From positions 124,001 through 188,000 of the forward strand of contig JAJTXV010000003.1 of assembly GCA_021463845.1 (NCBI GenBank): a stretch of 64,000 bases of DNA. The letters are read 5' to 3'. Source of the stretch: Anaerolineales bacterium. GTDB taxonomy: Bacteria; Chloroflexota; Anaerolineae; Anaerolineales; UBA11579. The position numbers were made by a program, and so were the translations under genes. This document shows positions 3,665 to 32,743 of the stretch, in pieces (positions within the stretch are counted from its first letter, which is position 1; each line of letters starts with the position of its first letter). The notes below the pieces were generated by a model, which saw only the letters and a list, made by a program, of their open reading frames with translations, did no database searches and was not told the DNA's origin.

Positions 3665-4155
3665 TAGGACTCCTGCTGCTCTTTCCAGATGCGATAGTTC
3701 TCTGTGATCTGCTGGGCGTGGGCGCGGGGGTGGTTGGAGTAGATGCGTAGCCAGCGCTCGAAGGTGTAGGGCTCATCGTACTCCGGATGGATGACAGTAT
3801 TGCTCCACACGCCATCAGGCAGCTTCTTGATGAAGTCGTAAGTGACCTTGCGCACCATGCGGGTCAGCGCCAGGGCATCCTCGATGTTCTCGGAGTGATA
3901 GTCCAGCTCGACGGCCCAGACGTCCTGGTCGTAGCCCATCAGCGGCTGGCCGGGTTCGGCCACCAGGCGGCGGGCACGCAGGAAGCTGTTGGTCTCGCTA
4001 TCCAGCAGGTGGATGATGTTCTCGTGCACGCTCCACGCATCCGGAGTGGGCTTGAACAGCCAGGCCTCTTTGGGGATGGCGTTCAGCGCGGCTTCGAATT
4101 CGTCAAAGGCAGTCGCGTAGGCTTCAATGAGCTGCTGGCGTTCGGCTTTTTCCAT
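3664..4155 (-). CDS. DinB family protein
   Basis: A 163-residue four-helix-bundle protein of the DinB/YfiT type. The segment [16 protein letters not shown] carries the first metal-site histidine, with further histidines near the C terminus at [11 protein letters not shown], fitting the three-His pattern of the family. DinB-like proteins are metal-dependent transferases or thiol-dependent enzymes in some species, but most are uncharacterised. It is tightly packed between the thiolase and hbd genes (start adjacent to the thiolase stop, one-base overlap with hbd), so co-expression with them is likely. A direct role in that pathway is not shown. Confidence 0.85.
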
Positions 4156-25251: not shown

Positions 25252-25287
25252 ACTCAGGCAGCCCAGCCGTGGCTGCCACCGAACCCT

Positions 25288-28200
25288 ATGACCATCGTAC
25301 TCACCAAAGTGCGTGCCCCGCAGCGCCGCAAGGATGTTTTGCGGCGCGTGCGGCTGGTGGATACCCTGCACCAGAACCTGCACCGCAAGCTGACCTTTGT
25401 TTCCGCCCCTGCCGGCTACGGCAAAACCACCCTGCTGGTGGATTTTGCCGCGGATGTGGACGCCCACGTGTGCTGGTACCGCATCGGGCCGGAGGATGGC
25501 GACCTGGTGCAGTTCGCCCAGCACATTGTGGCCGCCTTCCAGCAGGAGTTCCCCGGCTTCGGGGAAGCGCTGGAAGAGCGCCTGAACACACCCGGCGCCC
25601 GGCCAGACGCCCCCAGCATTGCCACTGAGCTGATCAACGCCGTGCAGGAGCAAGTGCCCGATTTCAGCGTACTGGTGCTCGACGATTACCACCTGGCGGG
25701 CGAAAACCAGCAGATCGTCGATTTCCTCGAGAACCTGCTTGAGCACCTGCCTGACCATCTGCGCATCCTGATCGGCTCGCGCAGCGTGTATGGCATCCCG
25801 GCCGCCAGCCTGTATATCCGCGATGAGCTGGTGACCATCGGCGCGGATGAGCTGCGCTTCCGCGCCGATGAGCTGCAGAAGCTGGTGCTGCAAAACTATC
25901 GCATGCGCCTCTCGCAGGAGGAAGCCGAGGAGTTGGCCAAGCGCGCCGACGGCTGGATCGTAGCCCTGCTGCTGGCGGTGCGGGCCATGAGCACCGGCAG
26001 CATGCCGCACTTCCTGGGCAACACCGAGCAGATCTATACCTACCTGGCCGAAGAGGTCGTAAGCCAGCAAAGTGAAGAGCTGCGCCAGTTCATGCTGGGC
26101 GCCTCCATATTTAGCGACTTCTCCGAAGCCCTGTGCAACTATGTGATGCAGCGCGAAGATTCAGGCGACATGCTGCGCGCCCTGGAGGAACGCAACCTGT
26201 TCGTCAGCCGCACCGAAACGCGCGAGGGCAACAGCTATCGATTCCACCAGCTGTTCTCGGAATTTTTGCAGGATTACTTTGCCCGCCACGACCCGGCCCA
26301 GTTGCGCAGCTTGCACTCGCGGGCGGCAGACTGGCACTTCCAGCGCCAGGAGTGGGAGAACGCCGTCCAGCACAAGTTCGCCTCCGGCGAGGTGCAGGCG
26401 GCCGCGGCCTGGATGGACGCCGCCGCCGAGCACTTCTACACCACCGGCCGCCAGGCGCTGCTGGCGCGCTGGCTGGAAGACCTGGACAAGACCCCCGGCC
26501 TGCGCCAACATGCGCCGCGCCTGATCCTGTACCAGGCCAAATCGCTCACCAACCAAAGCCAGTTTGAAGCCTGTCTAAAACTCCTGGCGGAAGCGGAGCC
26601 TATTCTTAAACAACGCGGTGATGCCGAACTGCTGGCCAATGCCTTCATCACGCGCGGCATGGTGTATCGCTTCAGCGGCAAACCCCAGGGTGCTATTGAT
26701 ATGGCCGAGGCGGCCCAGAAGCTGCTAACAGCCGAATCCCAGCACACCTTGCAGTGGTTCCAAGCGGAGCGCCTGCGCGGCGTACCGCTGCATGTGCTCG
26801 GCAAGACCGAAGCGGGCATCCAGCACATCAGCGCCGCAGTCGTCGGCATGCGTGAATTGGCGGCGAAAGGCTCTGAGAGCAGCCGTACAGTGTATTTGTT
26901 TGACCTGGCAGAATGTCTTAACGATCTTGGGCTTATTCACATCACAAGCGGCCAAATGCTTAGCGCCCAGCAGGCCTTTCAAGAAGCGTTGGATATCCAC
27001 ATCAGCATTCGCAGCAACCTCGGCGCGCTAGCTTCGGCGCGCAACAACATCGCCTACTTGTTGCACCAGACCGGGCAATATCAGGCCTCCTGGAAACAGT
27101 ACATGCAGGCATTGGGGAATGTGCGTTCCTCCGGCCGGGCGCGTGTGCACATTGGCATCCTGAGCGGCCAGGGGGCCCTGCTGCTGGATGTCGGAGACCC
27201 GCATGAGGCCCAGGCCAGCCTGCTGGCCGCGGTGGAGGTGGGCGAAACCACCGGCGAGCTGCAGGAGCTGGTGCCAGTCTACGTAAGCCTGGCCCGCGTC
27301 AGCAGCGCGTTGGGCGACTACAACGAATCGATGGCCTGGCTGCGCAAAGCCGCCAGCCAGGCGGGCTCGCGCTTCAGCCGCGCCGAGTACGCCCTGCACA
27401 TGGGCTGGACCTACGCCAACATGGAACAGTACGACCTGGCGCTGCAACAGCTGGAGCTTGCTCTGCAAAACTGGAGCAGCCCGCCGCAGCAAGACCAGGT
27501 GACGGCTGCTTTCCTGCGGGCCTGCGTACTCTACAAACTGGGCAAGGAAAGCGATGGCGAAGCGCAGCTCAGCCAAGCGTTGCAAGGCGCGGCCCACCTG
27601 GGCTACCAACAATTCCTGATCCCGCTGGCGCGGGACTGGCAGACGGCATTGGTGCGCGCCCAGGCCAAGACGCCCTCGCCGCAACTGGCCGACATCCTGG
27701 AGCAGGCCAGCCGCGCCACCTTCACCCGCAGTATGCTGGAAGGCGAGGTGGAACGCACCACCGCCGAGCCGCAATTGCTGGAGGTACACACCCTGGGCAG
27801 CTCTGAGATCCGCCGCAACGGCGAAGTGCTGCCTGTGACCCTGTGGCGCTCCACACGCGCCCGCTCGCTCTTCATTTACATACTGGACCGCGGCCGCGTG
27901 CGCAAAGACGCGATCGGCATTCACTTCTGGCCTGATTTCAGCCCCGGCAAGGTAAGCAGTAACTTTCACGCCACCCTGTGGCGGGTGCGCCAGGCACTGG
28001 GTTTCAAGGACTCGATCGTGTTCGAGGATGACCACTATTCGCTGCACCCCAGCATTCAAACCTGGTATGACGCCAGGGAATTTGAGAACTACATGCGCAT
28101 GGCCACGACAACCAGCCTGCCCGAAGCGGAACAGGCTGAACTGTTGCGCCAGGCCGTGCGACTGTACCGCGGCCCGTATTTGGAAGATGTGTTCATGGAG

Positions 28201-28506
28201 TGGGCCGACGACCGCCGCGAAGAGCTGCGCGGCCTGTACCTGGGCGCGCTGGAGCTGTTGGGCAATATTGAGGTGAAGGCCGGGCGTCACCGCGAGGCCC
28301 GCGAGATCTATGAGCGCATTGTGGCCAGCGACCCGTACCGCGACGAGGCCCACCTCGCGCTGATGAAGAGCATGGCCGATTCAGGCGCCAGCTCGGCCGC
28401 CATCCTGCACTACAAGGAATATCAAAAGCTACTACGGAGGGAGCTAAACGCCGAGCCGATCGAGGCTCTGCAAACCTATTATCAGCAACTGACCATCAGG
28501 GTTTAA
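25288..28506 (+). CDS. MalT-like ATPase-TPR-BTAD transcriptional regulator
   Basis: A 1072-residue protein. An N-terminal STAND-type ATPase follows the lead-in [15 protein letters not shown]: Walker A is [15 protein letters not shown] (near residue 45), Walker B is [10 protein letters not shown] (near 130). Residues about 370-800 are tetratricopeptide-like helical repeats. The last 250 residues contain an OmpR-type winged helix ([33 protein letters not shown]) and a BTAD domain ending [16 protein letters not shown], as in SARP activators. Such proteins sense a ligand through the ATPase/TPR part and activate nearby genes. The repeat peptide gene lies 152 bp downstream, an obvious target candidate. 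Confidence 0.92.
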
Positions 28507-28546
28507 ACGGCAAGAAAATTGCATCTTACAAGCTGAAAGTCACAGG

Positions 28547-28575
28547 AAAGCTGCTCACTTTGGGTGGCTTTTTTT
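28547..28575 (+). terminator. Intrinsic terminator after the BTAD regulator
   Basis: AAAGCTGCTC pairs with GGGTGGCTTT (three G-U pairs) around an ACTTT loop, followed by T's to 28575. It separates the regulator from the peptide gene. Confidence 0.65.
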
Positions 28576-28612
28576 GACCATTTGCTCATAGCCGCGTTCA
28601 TAGGGCACTGCC

Positions 28613-28618
28613 TACAAT
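28613..28618 (+). promoter_or_regulatory. -10 box of the repeat-peptide gene
   Basis: TACAAT 41 bp before the ATG. The -35 position at 17 bp is poor (AGCCGC), consistent with a promoter that needs an activator, although a TTGACC lies farther upstream at 28574-28579. Confidence 0.4.
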
Positions 28619-28658
28619 GCGGCCAATCTAAATCAGAAAAAACAGGAGATTTACGAAA

Positions 28659-28859
28659 ATGACCAAGAAATTTGCTTTTGCTCATCCCGTTGGTGGCGGC
28701 GTAGGTACTGGCCCGCAGGCGAATCACCCCGTAGGTGGCGGTGTTGGCACCGGCCCCGGCCTGTCTCATCACCCTGTTGGCGGCGGCGTAGGCACTGGCC
28801 CCGGCCTGAGCCACCACCCTGTTGGCGGCGGTGTAGGCACCGGCCCCACCACTCTGTAA
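28659..28859 (+). CDS. Four-repeat HPVGGGVGTGP peptide, unknown function
   Basis: A 66-residue protein: an 8-residue head (MTKKFAFA), then four units beginning HPVGGGVGTGP at codons starting 28683, 28725, 28770 and 28815. The spacers are QAN, GLSH, GLSH, and TTL at the C terminus. Units 2 and 3 are identical in 15 residues, yet 8 of 15 codons differ, including TCT against AGC for serine. The amino acid sequence is therefore under selection, and the gene is real. AGGAG lies 10 bp before the ATG. There is no signal peptide or leader. Its composition (Gly, Val, Pro, His, Thr) suggests a flexible or modified peptide. A multi-core RiPP precursor, a signalling peptide or a metal-binding repeat protein are possible; none is shown. 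Confidence 0.85.
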   Translation: MTKKFAFAHPVGGGVGTGPQANHPVGGGVGTGPGLSHHPVGGGVGTGPGLSHHPVGGGVGTGPTTL

Positions 28860-28915
28860 TCTTCAACCGATTCTGAGCTAAACAATTTTGCAGTATTTGC
28901 CTTAGGAGACCTACA

Positions 28916-29131
28916 ATGTCCAAGCTGAAACTGAACGCTATCGCCACTCTCGCTCTGGTAGACCAGGATTTCAAAGCGGCTATGTTGAGCGGCCGCCTGC
29001 AGGAAAAGTTGGGTGCATTTCAATTGAATGAAGAAGAGATGCGCGCCATCACGGCCATCCAAGCCATGGATTTGGACCAGTTCATGCGCCGCCTCGGCTC
29101 GCTGATCCAGACCTCGGCGGCCGTACACTAG
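28916..29131 (+). CDS. Small Nif11/Os1348-like (NHLP-type leader) protein
   Basis: A 71-residue protein starting MSKLKLNAIATLALVDQDF. The pattern of an N-terminal helix ending in DQDFKAAML, a turn, then FQLNEEEMRAITAIQAMDLDQF resembles the leader domains of NHLP-type RiPP precursors such as Nif11-like and Os1348 families, where a DxxFxxxL and an LTxEExxAL motif are typical. The tail after this (GSLIQTSAAVH) is short and has no cysteines. A TTAGGAGAC ribosome binding site precedes the ATG. It lies 56 bp after the repeat peptide, probably in one transcript. No modifying enzyme is nearby, so a RiPP role is inferred from similarity only. Confidence 0.7.
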   Translation: MSKLKLNAIATLALVDQDFKAAMLSGRLQEKLGAFQLNEEEMRAITAIQAMDLDQFMRRLGSLIQTSAAVH

Positions 29132-29154: not shown

Positions 29155-29175
29155 AGCTGCCCGGTTGCCGGGCAG
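29155..29175 (+). terminator. GC-rich hairpin after the two small genes
   Basis: GCTGCCCGG-TTG-CCGGGCAGC is a perfect 9-bp stem with a 3-base loop. No T-run follows, so it may be a weak terminator or an mRNA 3'-end stabiliser that lets the small genes be expressed more strongly than the downstream gene. Confidence 0.45.
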
Positions 29176-29224
29176 CAAGCACCGTTCCCTTAACATGACG
29201 CAGCCCGCAAGATGAGCAGCGCGT

Positions 29225-32200
29225 ATGGGTATTGAGACAATGCTGCTAGCTTCCTTCAAAGACTCTCAATCGCGCCCGAACGCTCCGGACGCAGCCTCTT
29301 TGCGCAACCTGAGCAAGGTCAAGGCGCTGGTGGAGCATAGTGCGGATGCGGTCCTGATCCTGCATGCCGAAAGCGGCAAGATCCTGGTGGCCAACCAGAG
29401 CGCCTTGCTGCTGTTCGAGGCAGACGAAGGCGCTTTGTACGGGCTTACCTTCAACCAATTGAGCGCAACAAAGAATGCGCCCAAGAGCGCGGCGCTGGAA
29501 CGCTATGCGGACCATGTACAGCGCGTGCGCGCCGGCGAAACGCCAGAATTCGAATGGCAGGGCCGCACGCCCAGCGGCAAGCAAATTTCCGGCAAAGCTC
29601 ATATGTCCAGCCTGCCCGTGAACGATACCGAGTTCATCCGCGTCCTGATCGCACACCCGGAAGCGGATAGCGCCAGCTGGGTCGAAGACGGTCAGCATGT
29701 TGATGAGCTGGCCGCCCTGGCGCTGACCGGCGCCAGCATTGCCTCCAGCCTGGATATTGACAAAGTAATGGCGGTGGTCGGCAAGCAGCTGGCCACCCTG
29801 CTGGACGCGAATGCCTTCATTGCGTATGACTGGATGGCTGACAGCAAAGAGTTGCGCCTGCGCCACAGCTACACCTTGGCGCGCAGCCAACCCAAGCCGG
29901 TTGCGCCTGACTTGGATGTCAGCAACGTGCTCGATCTTGGCCGCCCGCTGCAAAAGCAGGCCAACGCCAGCACCACAAGCGCCAACGAAAAGAAAACCAT
30001 GAAATCGGCCGGGGCCGCCACCGTGCTGGTGCTGCCGCTGATCGCGCAAAGCAAGACGATCGGCCTGGCCGAACTGCAGGACAAGCGCGAGGGCCGCACC
30101 TTCAGCAGCCGCGAGATCTATTTGGCACAGACCCTGTGCCACCAGGCGGCCGTGGCCATCGAAAATGCGCGCCTCTTCCAGGCCACCCGCCGCCAGCTGC
30201 AAGAGCTGACCATCCTGCAGCAGGTGGCCAACGCCACTACTGAGGCCAACACTGTGGACGAGCTGATCGAGAGCGCCACCCAGCTCATTCGCCACAGCAT
30301 TTATTCGGATAACTTCGGCATCATTCTATTGGGTGAAGACGGGCAGCTGCACATTCACCCATCATACGAATCCGCCCCGGAGGTCGCCAGCAAGCCCATT
30401 CCGCTGGGCCAGGGCGTCACCGGCCGCGTGGCGCAAACCGGTAAGCCCATGCGCATTGCCGATACCAGCCAGGAAGCCAATTACCTCGGCTACGATCAGC
30501 AAACCCTATCTGAGTTGTGCGTGCCGATGAAGATCGGCGACCGCGTGATCGGCATCATTAACACCGAGAGCCGCGAGCTCAACCACTTCACCGAAGACGA
30601 TGAGCGCCTGCTGCTGACCCTGGCCGGCCAGCTGGCCACCGGCATTGAACGCCTGCGCAACGCGGCCGCTGAGAGCCGCCGCACGCACCAGTTGGCCGTG
30701 CTCAACGAGCTCACCAACCGCATGAGCGGCGTGCTGGAGCGCGACAAACTGTTCGAGATCATTGTGGAGTGCCTGCACCGCCGCATGGGCTACTACTCCA
30801 CCGATATCTCCCGTGTGGATGACGACACCCAGTCCTACATCGTGGAAGCGGTGGCCGGCGGCTTCGAACTGGTGGCAGAGCGCCAGGGCTATGTGCAGCC
30901 CTTTGGCATGGGGCTGCTGGGCCAGGCCGCCCGCACGGGTGAGGTGGTGTACACAAACAACACCAGCAAAAATCCCAACTTCCTGCAGGTTGAAGGCTTT
31001 GCCAAGATCCAGTCAGAGATCGTGATCCCGATCAAGATCTACAACAAGGTCTATGCCCTACTGAACATCGAAAGCCAGCAGGCCAACGCCTTTGACGATT
31101 ACGAGATCGCGGCCCTCTCCACTTTGGGCGACCAGATCTCCATGTTCCTGGAGAGCGTGCACTTGTTCGAGTCGACCAAGCGCCAGCTGCAGGAGCTAAC
31201 CGTGCTGCACGCCATCACTCAGGCGGCGGTCAACGCCCGCAGCGAAGATGAATTGATCGAGCGCGCCACCGAGATCATTGGCGCCAGCCTGTACACCGAC
31301 AAGTTCGGCTTCCTCACCATGCACCCGGATGGCGATAAGCTGATCGTGCATCCCGCCTACCGGGGCATCGCCCCGCAGGACCTGAGCCGGGTGGTCAGCC
31401 TGGCCGAGGGCGTAACCGGCCGCGTGGCCGCCACCGGCAAAGCCTGGCGCGTGCCAGACGTGCGCAAAGAGCCCAGCTACATGCGCGTGAACCCCAACAT
31501 GCGCTCCGAGCTGTGCGTGCCCATCCTGGGTAACGGCAACCGCGTGCTGGGCGTGATCAACGCCGAGAGCGTGCGCGTCAACGCCTTCACTGACTCGGAT
31601 CTGCGCCTGCTCAGCACGATCGCCGGGCAGACCGGCACCGCCATCGAGAAACTGCGCCTGCTGCAATCCGAACGCTTCCAGCGCAGCCAGGCCGAAACCC
31701 TGCGTGAAGTGGCCGCCATCCTCGGCTCGGCGGCTGACCGTGCCAGCGTGCTGGACCTGATCCTGGAGCAGCTAAAGCGGGTCGTGCCGTTCGACAGCGC
31801 CTCGGTGCAACTGGTGCGCGGCGAGAACCTGATCGTGCACGCCGTAGCCGGCAATCTGGACTCTGCCATCGTTGGCCTGGAACTGCCCATCAAGGAAGAC
31901 AAATTCGCCCATCCGCTGTTGTTCGAGCAGCGCACCGTGCTGTACGAGGACATCAGTGAGCATCCCGATTGGCTGCAGTTGGAAGGCGCCCAGGGCGTGA
32001 AGTCGTGGATCGGCGCTCCGCTGATCGCGCGCGGCGCCTGCATTGGCGTATTGACCGTGGACGGCTACACCGCCAAGCAATTCTCGCAGGCCGATGCCGA
32101 TCTGGTGGCCTCGTTTGCCATCCACGCCGGCATCGCGCTGGAAAATGTGCGCCTGTTTGAGGAGGCACAAGACGCCTACCTGCAAACGGTGAGCGCACTG

Positions 32201-32743
32201 GCCAGCGCCATTGATGTGCGCGACACCTACACCAGCGGCCACAGCCAGCGCCTGGTGGATATGGCCGTGGAGACCGGCCGCCTGCTGGGCTGCACGCCTG
32301 AAGAATTGGTAGACATCAAGTGGGGTGCGCTGCTGCACGACATTGGCAAGATCGGCGTGCCGGACGAGATATTGCGCAAGCCCAGCTCGCTGGAGCAAGC
32401 TGAGCTGGAGGTGATGCGCCAGCATCCCGAGATCGGCGCCCGCATTGTGGAGCCGGTGCGCAACCTGGCCTCGGTAGCCCCCATCATCCGCGCCCACCAG
32501 GAGCGTTACGACGGCACCGGCTACCCGGACGGGCTCAAGGGTGACCAGATCCCTAAGATCGCCCGCATCATCAGCGTGGCGGATGCCTACGTAGCCATGA
32601 CGGATGAGCGCGTCTATCGCAAAGCGCGCTCGAAAGAGGAAGCCATCGCCGAGCTGAAGCGCTGCAGCGGCTCGCAGTTTGACCCACAAGTGGTTGAGGC
32701 GTTCCTGCAGGTGCTGGACACCTGCAACGGCGACGAGAGCTAG
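29225..32743 (+). CDS. PAS-GAF(5)-HD-GYP signalling protein
   Basis: An 1172-residue cytoplasmic protein with no transmembrane segment. A PAS domain (about 33-140) is followed by about five GAF domains (about 165-320, 335-490, 505-660, 670-820, 835-985); internal repeats such as RQLQELTILQQVANATTEAN and RQLQELTVLHAITQAAVNAR show duplication. The C-terminal HD-GYP domain has HDIGKIGVPDEIL and the GYP motif as RYDGTGYPDGLKGD. HD-GYP proteins hydrolyse cyclic di-GMP. Start: the ATG at 29225 or 29240. It follows the two small genes by 93 bp. The GAF array suggests several small-molecule inputs. Confidence 0.93.
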   Translation: MGIETMLLASFKDSQSRPNAPDAASLRNLSKVKALVEHSADAVLILHAESGKILVANQSALLLFEADEGALYGLTFNQLSATKNAPKSAALERYADHVQRVRAGETPEFEWQGRTPSGKQISGKAHMSSLPVNDTEFIRVLIAHPEADSASWVEDGQHVDELAALALTGASIASSLDIDKVMAVVGKQLATLLDANAFIAYDWMADSKELRLRHSYTLARSQPKPVAPDLDVSNVLDLGRPLQKQANASTTSANEKKTMKSAGAATVLVLPLIAQSKTIGLAELQDKREGRTFSSREIYLAQTLCHQAAVAIENARLFQATRRQLQELTILQQVANATTEANTVDELIESATQLIRHSIYSDNFGIILLGEDGQLHIHPSYESAPEVASKPIPLGQGVTGRVAQTGKPMRIADTSQEANYLGYDQQTLSELCVPMKIGDRVIGIINTESRELNHFTEDDERLLLTLAGQLATGIERLRNAAAESRRTHQLAVLNELTNRMSGVLERDKLFEIIVECLHRRMGYYSTDISRVDDDTQSYIVEAVAGGFELVAERQGYVQPFGMGLLGQAARTGEVVYTNNTSKNPNFLQVEGFAKIQSEIVIPIKIYNKVYALLNIESQQANAFDDYEIAALSTLGDQISMFLESVHLFESTKRQLQELTVLHAITQAAVNARSEDELIERATEIIGASLYTDKFGFLTMHPDGDKLIVHPAYRGIAPQDLSRVVSLAEGVTGRVAATGKAWRVPDVRKEPSYMRVNPNMRSELCVPILGNGNRVLGVINAESVRVNAFTDSDLRLLSTIAGQTGTAIEKLRLLQSERFQRSQAETLREVAAILGSAADRASVLDLILEQLKRVVPFDSASVQLVRGENLIVHAVAGNLDSAIVGLELPIKEDKFAHPLLFEQRTVLYEDISEHPDWLQLEGAQGVKSWIGAPLIARGACIGVLTVDGYTAKQFSQADADLVASFAIHAGIALENVRLFEEAQDAYLQTVSALASAIDVRDTYTSGHSQRLVDMAVETGRLLGCTPEELVDIKWGALLHDIGKIGVPDEILRKPSSLEQAELEVMRQHPEIGARIVEPVRNLASVAPIIRAHQERYDGTGYPDGLKGDQIPKIARIISVADAYVAMTDERVYRKARSKEEAIAELKRCSGSQFDPQVVEAFLQVLDTCNGDES

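Follow-up and report, generated by a model that had tools for sequence, protein, structure and literature searches.

The 66-residue open reading frame with four copies of HPVGGGVGTGP in the window (the whole 64,000-nucleotide stretch of Anaerolineales DNA analysed here) is a real, old gene. Our reading, to which we give a probability of about 0.42, is that it encodes a multi-copy peptide signal, a pheromone-type precursor, within a module that has one regulator and one promoter. The genes of the module are arranged in the order STAND-ATPase/TPR/BTAD (SARP-type) activator, peptide, Os1348/NHLP-like protein and HD-GYP protein (Table 1). What the data show are the gene itself, how it is conserved, the selection acting on the repeats, and a promoter box associated with the regulator. 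The original prediction had named a signalling or multi-core peptide as possible functions, which is the right class of hypothesis. It overlooked the Os1348/NHLP-like character of the following gene, the likely dedicated activator encoded upstream, the HD-GYP gene further downstream and the signal-peptide-like propeptides of other genera.

Table 1. Features of the peptide module and their positions in the window.
Feature	Position	Strand	Evidence
MalT-like STAND ATPase/TPR/C-terminal winged helix + BTAD (SARP-type) regulator	25285..28506	+	Pfam and PDB sequence matches
Terminator-like hairpin + T-run, 3' of the regulator gene	28546..28576	+	Fold -16.2 kcal/mol, z -1.08
SARP-type direct repeat GCTCATAG-N4-GTTCATAG, 12-bp period	28584..28603	+	30 loci, same period
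-10 element TACAAT, starting 10 nt past the second GTTCATA	28613..28618	+	TA at this offset in 25/30 loci
Shine-Dalgarno AGGAG for the peptide gene	28644..28648	+	Read from sequence
Peptide gene, 66 aa, 4x HPVGGGVGTGP	28659..28859	+	Translation; arrays in 10/10 congeners; pS 0.50, pN 0.004
Shine-Dalgarno AGGAG for the 71-aa gene	28905..28909	+	Read from sequence
71-aa Os1348/NHLP-like helical protein, 56 bp past the peptide gene	28916..29131	+	NF038399 E 7e-4
GC-rich hairpin without T-run, between the 71-aa and HD-GYP genes	29156..29176	+	Strong RNA fold; region z -0.31, no better than shuffles
PAS/GAF/HD-GYP protein, fourth gene of the module	29225..32743	+	Pfam GAF, HD_5

Translation of the gene gave the four copies exactly as claimed: the product begins with MTKKFAFA, the units are separated by QAN, GLSH and GLSH, and TTL follows the last of them. 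The units account for 44 residues, or for 55 (residues 9-63) when the spacers are included, so the repeats were correctly recognized but the earlier count of 58 of 66 residues was slightly too high. Codon counting showed, as had been stated, that 8 of 15 codons differ between copies 2 and 3, including a TCT/AGC exchange, although the 15 encoded residues are the same. The units in the window array are just 65-71% identical to one another at the DNA level, which rules out a recent DNA duplication. The peptide has no family in Pfam, NCBIfam or PHROGs, and the region around its gene has no match in Rfam. A PDB match of the peptide to tau was taken as chance; matches outside the genus in the genome search (E 0.005-0.1) were apparently Gly-rich chance matches and were left unused.

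A search of related genomes for absent or frameshifted arrays, suggested along with the original prediction, found the orthologous array in all 10 congeneric genomes searched (11 genomes with that of the window), flanked in every case by the regulator gene and the 71-aa gene. One frameshifted copy turned up in the congener G004, which carries two tandem peptide/NHLP pairs (L016:3378-3581 and 3949-4140); the first peptide is a frameshifted array and the second is intact. The draft contig of G004 has low coverage, so the frameshift is possibly an assembly error.

Across species the unit reads HPVGGGVGTGP, HPVGGGIGTGP, HPIGGGIGTGP or YPIGGGIGSGP, and further congeners have QPLGGGIGTGP, QPRGGGIGTGP, RPVGGGVGGFP and QPLSGGIGG. 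The core of the unit agrees among the copies of one gene, whereas the unit differs from species to species. When the divergence between copies within a gene was pooled over the 9-codon core, pS was 0.50 and pN was 0.004, which bears out the claim that the repeats are old and that purifying selection acts on them. A chance ORF or a decaying repeat, for which nothing speaks except that the gene is small and that the first of its two copies in G004 is frameshifted, is refuted by this selection pattern, and with the array in 11 genomes and a conserved promoter its probability is negligible. The whole peptide evolves faster than its 71-aa neighbour, with dN/dS values of 0.09-0.42 versus 0.02-0.17.

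The regulator tree has the form (G005,(window,(G007,G008))), with G001 and G002 outside. Unit position 7 is Ile in all five of these congeners and Val in all four copies of the window. Between the window and G007/G008, synonymous divergence is 0.34-0.37 for copies at the same position and 0.57-0.59 for copies at different positions, indicating that whole units have not been homogenised since these lineages split. The change from Ile to Val reached all four window copies without such homogenising; since the Val codon is GTA in three copies and GTT in one, short conversion tracts may have contributed. In favour of a peptide signal we count this parallel change in all four copies, the constant place of the array between the same two genes in 10 of 10 congeners, and copies that are identical within a gene despite the pS of 0.50 while the unit varies between species.

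The peptide gene has its own promoter of the activated type, as had been predicted from a weak -35, and the -35 is weak because a conserved SARP-type direct repeat occupies its position. The consensus of this box is GTTCATAG-N4-GTTCATAG, followed by a -10 element (TAnnnT) whose spacing depends on the repeat end chosen: it starts 10 nt downstream of the second GTTCATA, or 9 nt downstream of GTTCATAG. Several periods were tried; all 30 loci, which come from several families, have a period of 12 bp, with match scores of 12-16 out of 16 against a best of 8-12 in shuffled sequence. The box was not clearly seen in the more distant loci, which belong to other families of the order. A genome scan allowing at most one mismatch found a single box in the window genome, at the peptide gene, and each congener likewise has a box there. 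With the pattern reversed as a control, there was no site in the window genome and at most one in any congener. Of the other box matches read in other genomes, none lies ahead of a module-type peptide gene, and we regard them as chance. The comparison strongly supports a putative activation of the peptide and 71-aa operon by the STAND-ATPase/TPR/BTAD protein through the GTTCATAG direct repeat. The fixed 12-bp box, with one site in the window genome, and the single-copy regulator also argue for a signal. A good ribosome binding site was present as claimed. The terminator said to lie upstream fared less well: the hairpin folds, but it is only slightly better than shuffles and was not called by the consensus terminator scan. 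By eye, comparable hairpins lie upstream of the box in congeners.

The regulator is a protein of 1073 aa, encoded once in the genome, with a BTAD domain (PF03704, E 1.5e-22), several TPR families and a MalT-like N-terminus, and PDB chains of MalT and AfsR match it in sequence. It is likely the dedicated activator of the peptide gene. Divergence within it is fastest in the linker and TPR regions; G002, whose unit has also changed, shares 47% identity with the window in the TPR region and 91% in the ATPase. The presence of TPRs and the rapid divergence of the linker/TPR part are points for the signal reading. This divergence fits a changing ligand but could also reflect relaxed constraint; against the signal reading we count this second possibility and the correlation of every domain of the regulator with unit distance (r 0.54-0.69).

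The slot of the peptide gene, between the regulator and the 71-aa gene, is usually filled in other genera by a protein of 46-64 aa with a basic N-terminus, a hydrophobic segment and a Gly/Pro-rich tail, and propeptides of this build in the same slot likewise speak for a signal. Ala stands at the putative -1 position in 21 of 25 of them, where the putative cleavage sites were set by a rule of thumb, and the resulting tails are of the GPIPGGIGG, GPSPGGIGGGP and DGPSPGPVGG types, most of them 6-24 residues long. The maximal 15-residue KD mean is 2.2-3.6 in these forms versus 0.6 in the window peptide, in which the KD scan found neither a signal sequence nor a hydrophobic segment. At one locus, L030, the hydrophobic segment is followed by seven PIPGGVGG copies with Y/F-G linkers, and the core PGGVGGY is close to the GGGVGGY of congener G006. 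Together these forms suggest an order in which single-copy exported peptides may have given rise to multi-copy exported and then to multi-copy leaderless ones. In most relatives, the peptide would be exported by its signal sequence and a short Gly/Pro-rich tail would be released; in the window genus, where the copies are identical within each species, the unit would have been amplified to four or five copies and the signal sequence lost, a loss judged from the forms in other genera. At L031, a gene located between those for the regulator and the peptide resembles, by eye, aminoglycoside nucleotidyltransferases; another such gene lies upstream of the peptide at L030. L030 and L068 have an adjacent transposase-like ORF and no regulator nearby.

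The exported forms also bear on whether the product is a structural, surface or metal-binding Gly/Pro-rich peptide. Tandem Gly/Pro-rich repeats with one His per unit in the window species would suit such a role, but most exported forms would leave a tail of only 6-24 residues, and a dedicated activator with a single promoter is unusual for a structural protein. Metal binding, which the original prediction had entertained, was set aside because the unit His is not conserved, being replaced by Tyr, Gln or Arg in congeners. We regard this whole class of function as highly improbable.

Export of the window peptide counts against a signal: with no signal sequence in the peptide and no C39 exporter domain found in the genome search, it is unexplained. 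RRNPP-type systems offer precedents for multi-copy propeptides and for leaderless pheromones (PMC11343458, PMC10518010). Oligopeptide-binding proteins are present in the genome and could import peptides, and they are not specific. The lack of a signal sequence in the window genus is consistent with an AfsS-like intracellular effector, an intact array that would be made when the regulator is active and would act on transcription or on the HD-GYP protein, with no intercellular signal. The layout, in which a STAND/TPR/SARP regulator is combined with a direct-repeat box and a small protein made of repeats, is shared with AfsR-afsS and points the same way. The propeptides of other genera, however, have signal-like segments that an intracellular effector would not need, and we consider such an effector unlikely.

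The 71-aa neighbour, for which a simple pheromone pair does not account, is a further point against the signal reading. Homologues of this protein were found in 24 of 61 related genomes. Its likeness to Os1348/NHLP proteins falls below the curated cut-offs (19.6 vs 40 bits for NF038399, 14.2 vs 48 bits for PF14407), and its sequence-profile match to the Os1348 structure 6lk7 is weak (E 0.31). Its AlphaFold model is helical (pLDDT 80); a Foldseek search with this model gave no PDB match below E 0.001, and 6lk7 was not among the matches.

Elsewhere in the order, at L170:4523-5476, L173:4482-5273, L174:489-1286 and L176:4469-5311, an NHLP/Os1348 domain is fused to long tandem-repeat arrays, of the AAGG, GDDAAGRQ, ELTGVPAIDRGGE and AEGSL types. 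Both fused proteins that were tested passed the NF038399 cut-off. The fused loci L173, L174 and L176 adjoin Crp-type regulators and large membrane proteins with a HExxH-type motif, and the membrane protein of L173 matches the daptide protease family (E 1.8e-23) and is similar to daptide/YydH-type maturation proteases. Known neighbours of Os1348 are GNAT, HEXXH and SagB-type genes (PMC7726476). Os1348-like proteins of other Chloroflexota (L081-L097) have a conserved C-terminal tail of the SKSAGRGFF/SKRGGTGLM type, and several of their genes directly follow genes for TPR-like repeats with no small peptide gene between. At L178, L180, L186, L188, L190 and L191, which represent several families, a DUF5317-like membrane protein is encoded directly before the NHLP gene (one of these was checked against Pfam).

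Because of the fused NHLP-repeat loci, a split RiPP precursor stays alive as a rival, in which the 71-aa protein would be an NHLP-like leader acting in trans and the array a multi-core peptide cut or modified to identical short products. The weak Os1348/NHLP likeness of the 71-aa protein, the metalloprotease-like membrane proteins at three fused loci, and the identical copies to be expected of a multi-core precursor all agree with this idea. Yet the 71-aa protein, unlike Os1348/NHLP precursors, is below the cut-offs and has no fused core, and the genes of the module include no modification enzyme. A search of the genome for YcaO, LanC-like and C39 domains found none, and the daptide protease family occurs in it only as weak fragments. 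The unit contains no Cys and has Ser in some species only, and the exported forms have a signal-like segment of their own. On balance a split precursor appears improbable.

With the peptide signal as the preferred reading, the unit, either released by processing or still part of the intact array, would bind the TPR domain of the regulator and thereby close a positive feedback loop; HPVGGGVGTGP, HPVGGGVGTGPQAN and the whole 66-mer are candidate ligands. The 71-aa protein may help in maturing or binding the peptide, and the HD-GYP protein, whose gene lies downstream both in the window genus and in numerous others, may couple the state of the circuit to cyclic-di-GMP; for both roles the conserved neighbourhood is our only guide. 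Sensing, processing and export, like the roles of these two proteins, are steps that we infer.

Criteria published for RRNPP systems are a Sec-secreted propeptide of 10-100 aa, a receptor of 250-500 aa with TPRs, and adjacent genes (PMC10075063). As in the RRNPP(A) systems of Firmicutes (Rap-Phr, NprR-NprX, PlcR-PapR), a small peptide gene here directly adjoins that of a TPR regulator, both in the window and in the related loci compared; the peptide has 66 aa, and the peptides of other genera have a short C-terminal tail after a signal-like segment. The module differs from those systems in the window peptide without a signal sequence, in a receptor of 1073 aa (versus 250-500) with a STAND ATPase and BTAD, in the Chloroflexota host, and in the extra conserved NHLP-like and HD-GYP genes.

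The AfsR-afsS pair of Streptomyces coelicolor likewise consists of a large SARP regulator (nucleotide-binding, with TPRs), a direct-repeat box and a gene for a small repeat protein, AfsS, which has 63 aa and three repeats of a 12-aa segment (PMC2267785, PMC10936776). Unlike in AfsR, the domain order is reversed here, with the SARP part C-terminal; compared with AfsS by description, the Gly/Pro-rich unit is unrelated in kind, and the NHLP-like and HD-GYP genes are additional conserved members. SARP boxes are direct repeats with a period of 11 or 22 bp, located 8 bp from the -10 (PMC10936776), whereas the period here is 12 bp and the -10 starts 9 or 10 nt after the second repeat, depending on the end chosen for it, so the geometry is related but not identical. 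As defining features that were tested for RRNPP and for AfsR-afsS are missing here, we assign the module to neither; by analogy, its logic is best read as RRNPP-like and its promoter architecture as resembling that of AfsR-afsS.

No such module is described for Chloroflexota in the literature searched, the coverage of which was incomplete. In that literature, TPR-sensed peptide pheromones belong to Firmicutes and their viruses, and SARP regulators are actinomycete antibiotic activators; the two themes would come together in a conserved regulator-box-peptide module of Chloroflexota. More tentatively, it is possible that the module serves cell-cell signalling throughout the Anaerolineales, where the STAND-ATPase/TPR/BTAD activator would sense a Gly/Pro-rich pheromone and switch on the peptide, its NHLP-like partner and cyclic-di-GMP turnover, the leaderless four-copy array kept by selection being the form of one genus. 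With a single regulator, promoter and peptide in each genome, the module is a compact test case, and it bears on an open question in Streptomyces, the role of AfsS as a small repeat protein beside a large SARP. The array itself is a clear natural case of copies that are identical within a species and of a unit that changes between species.
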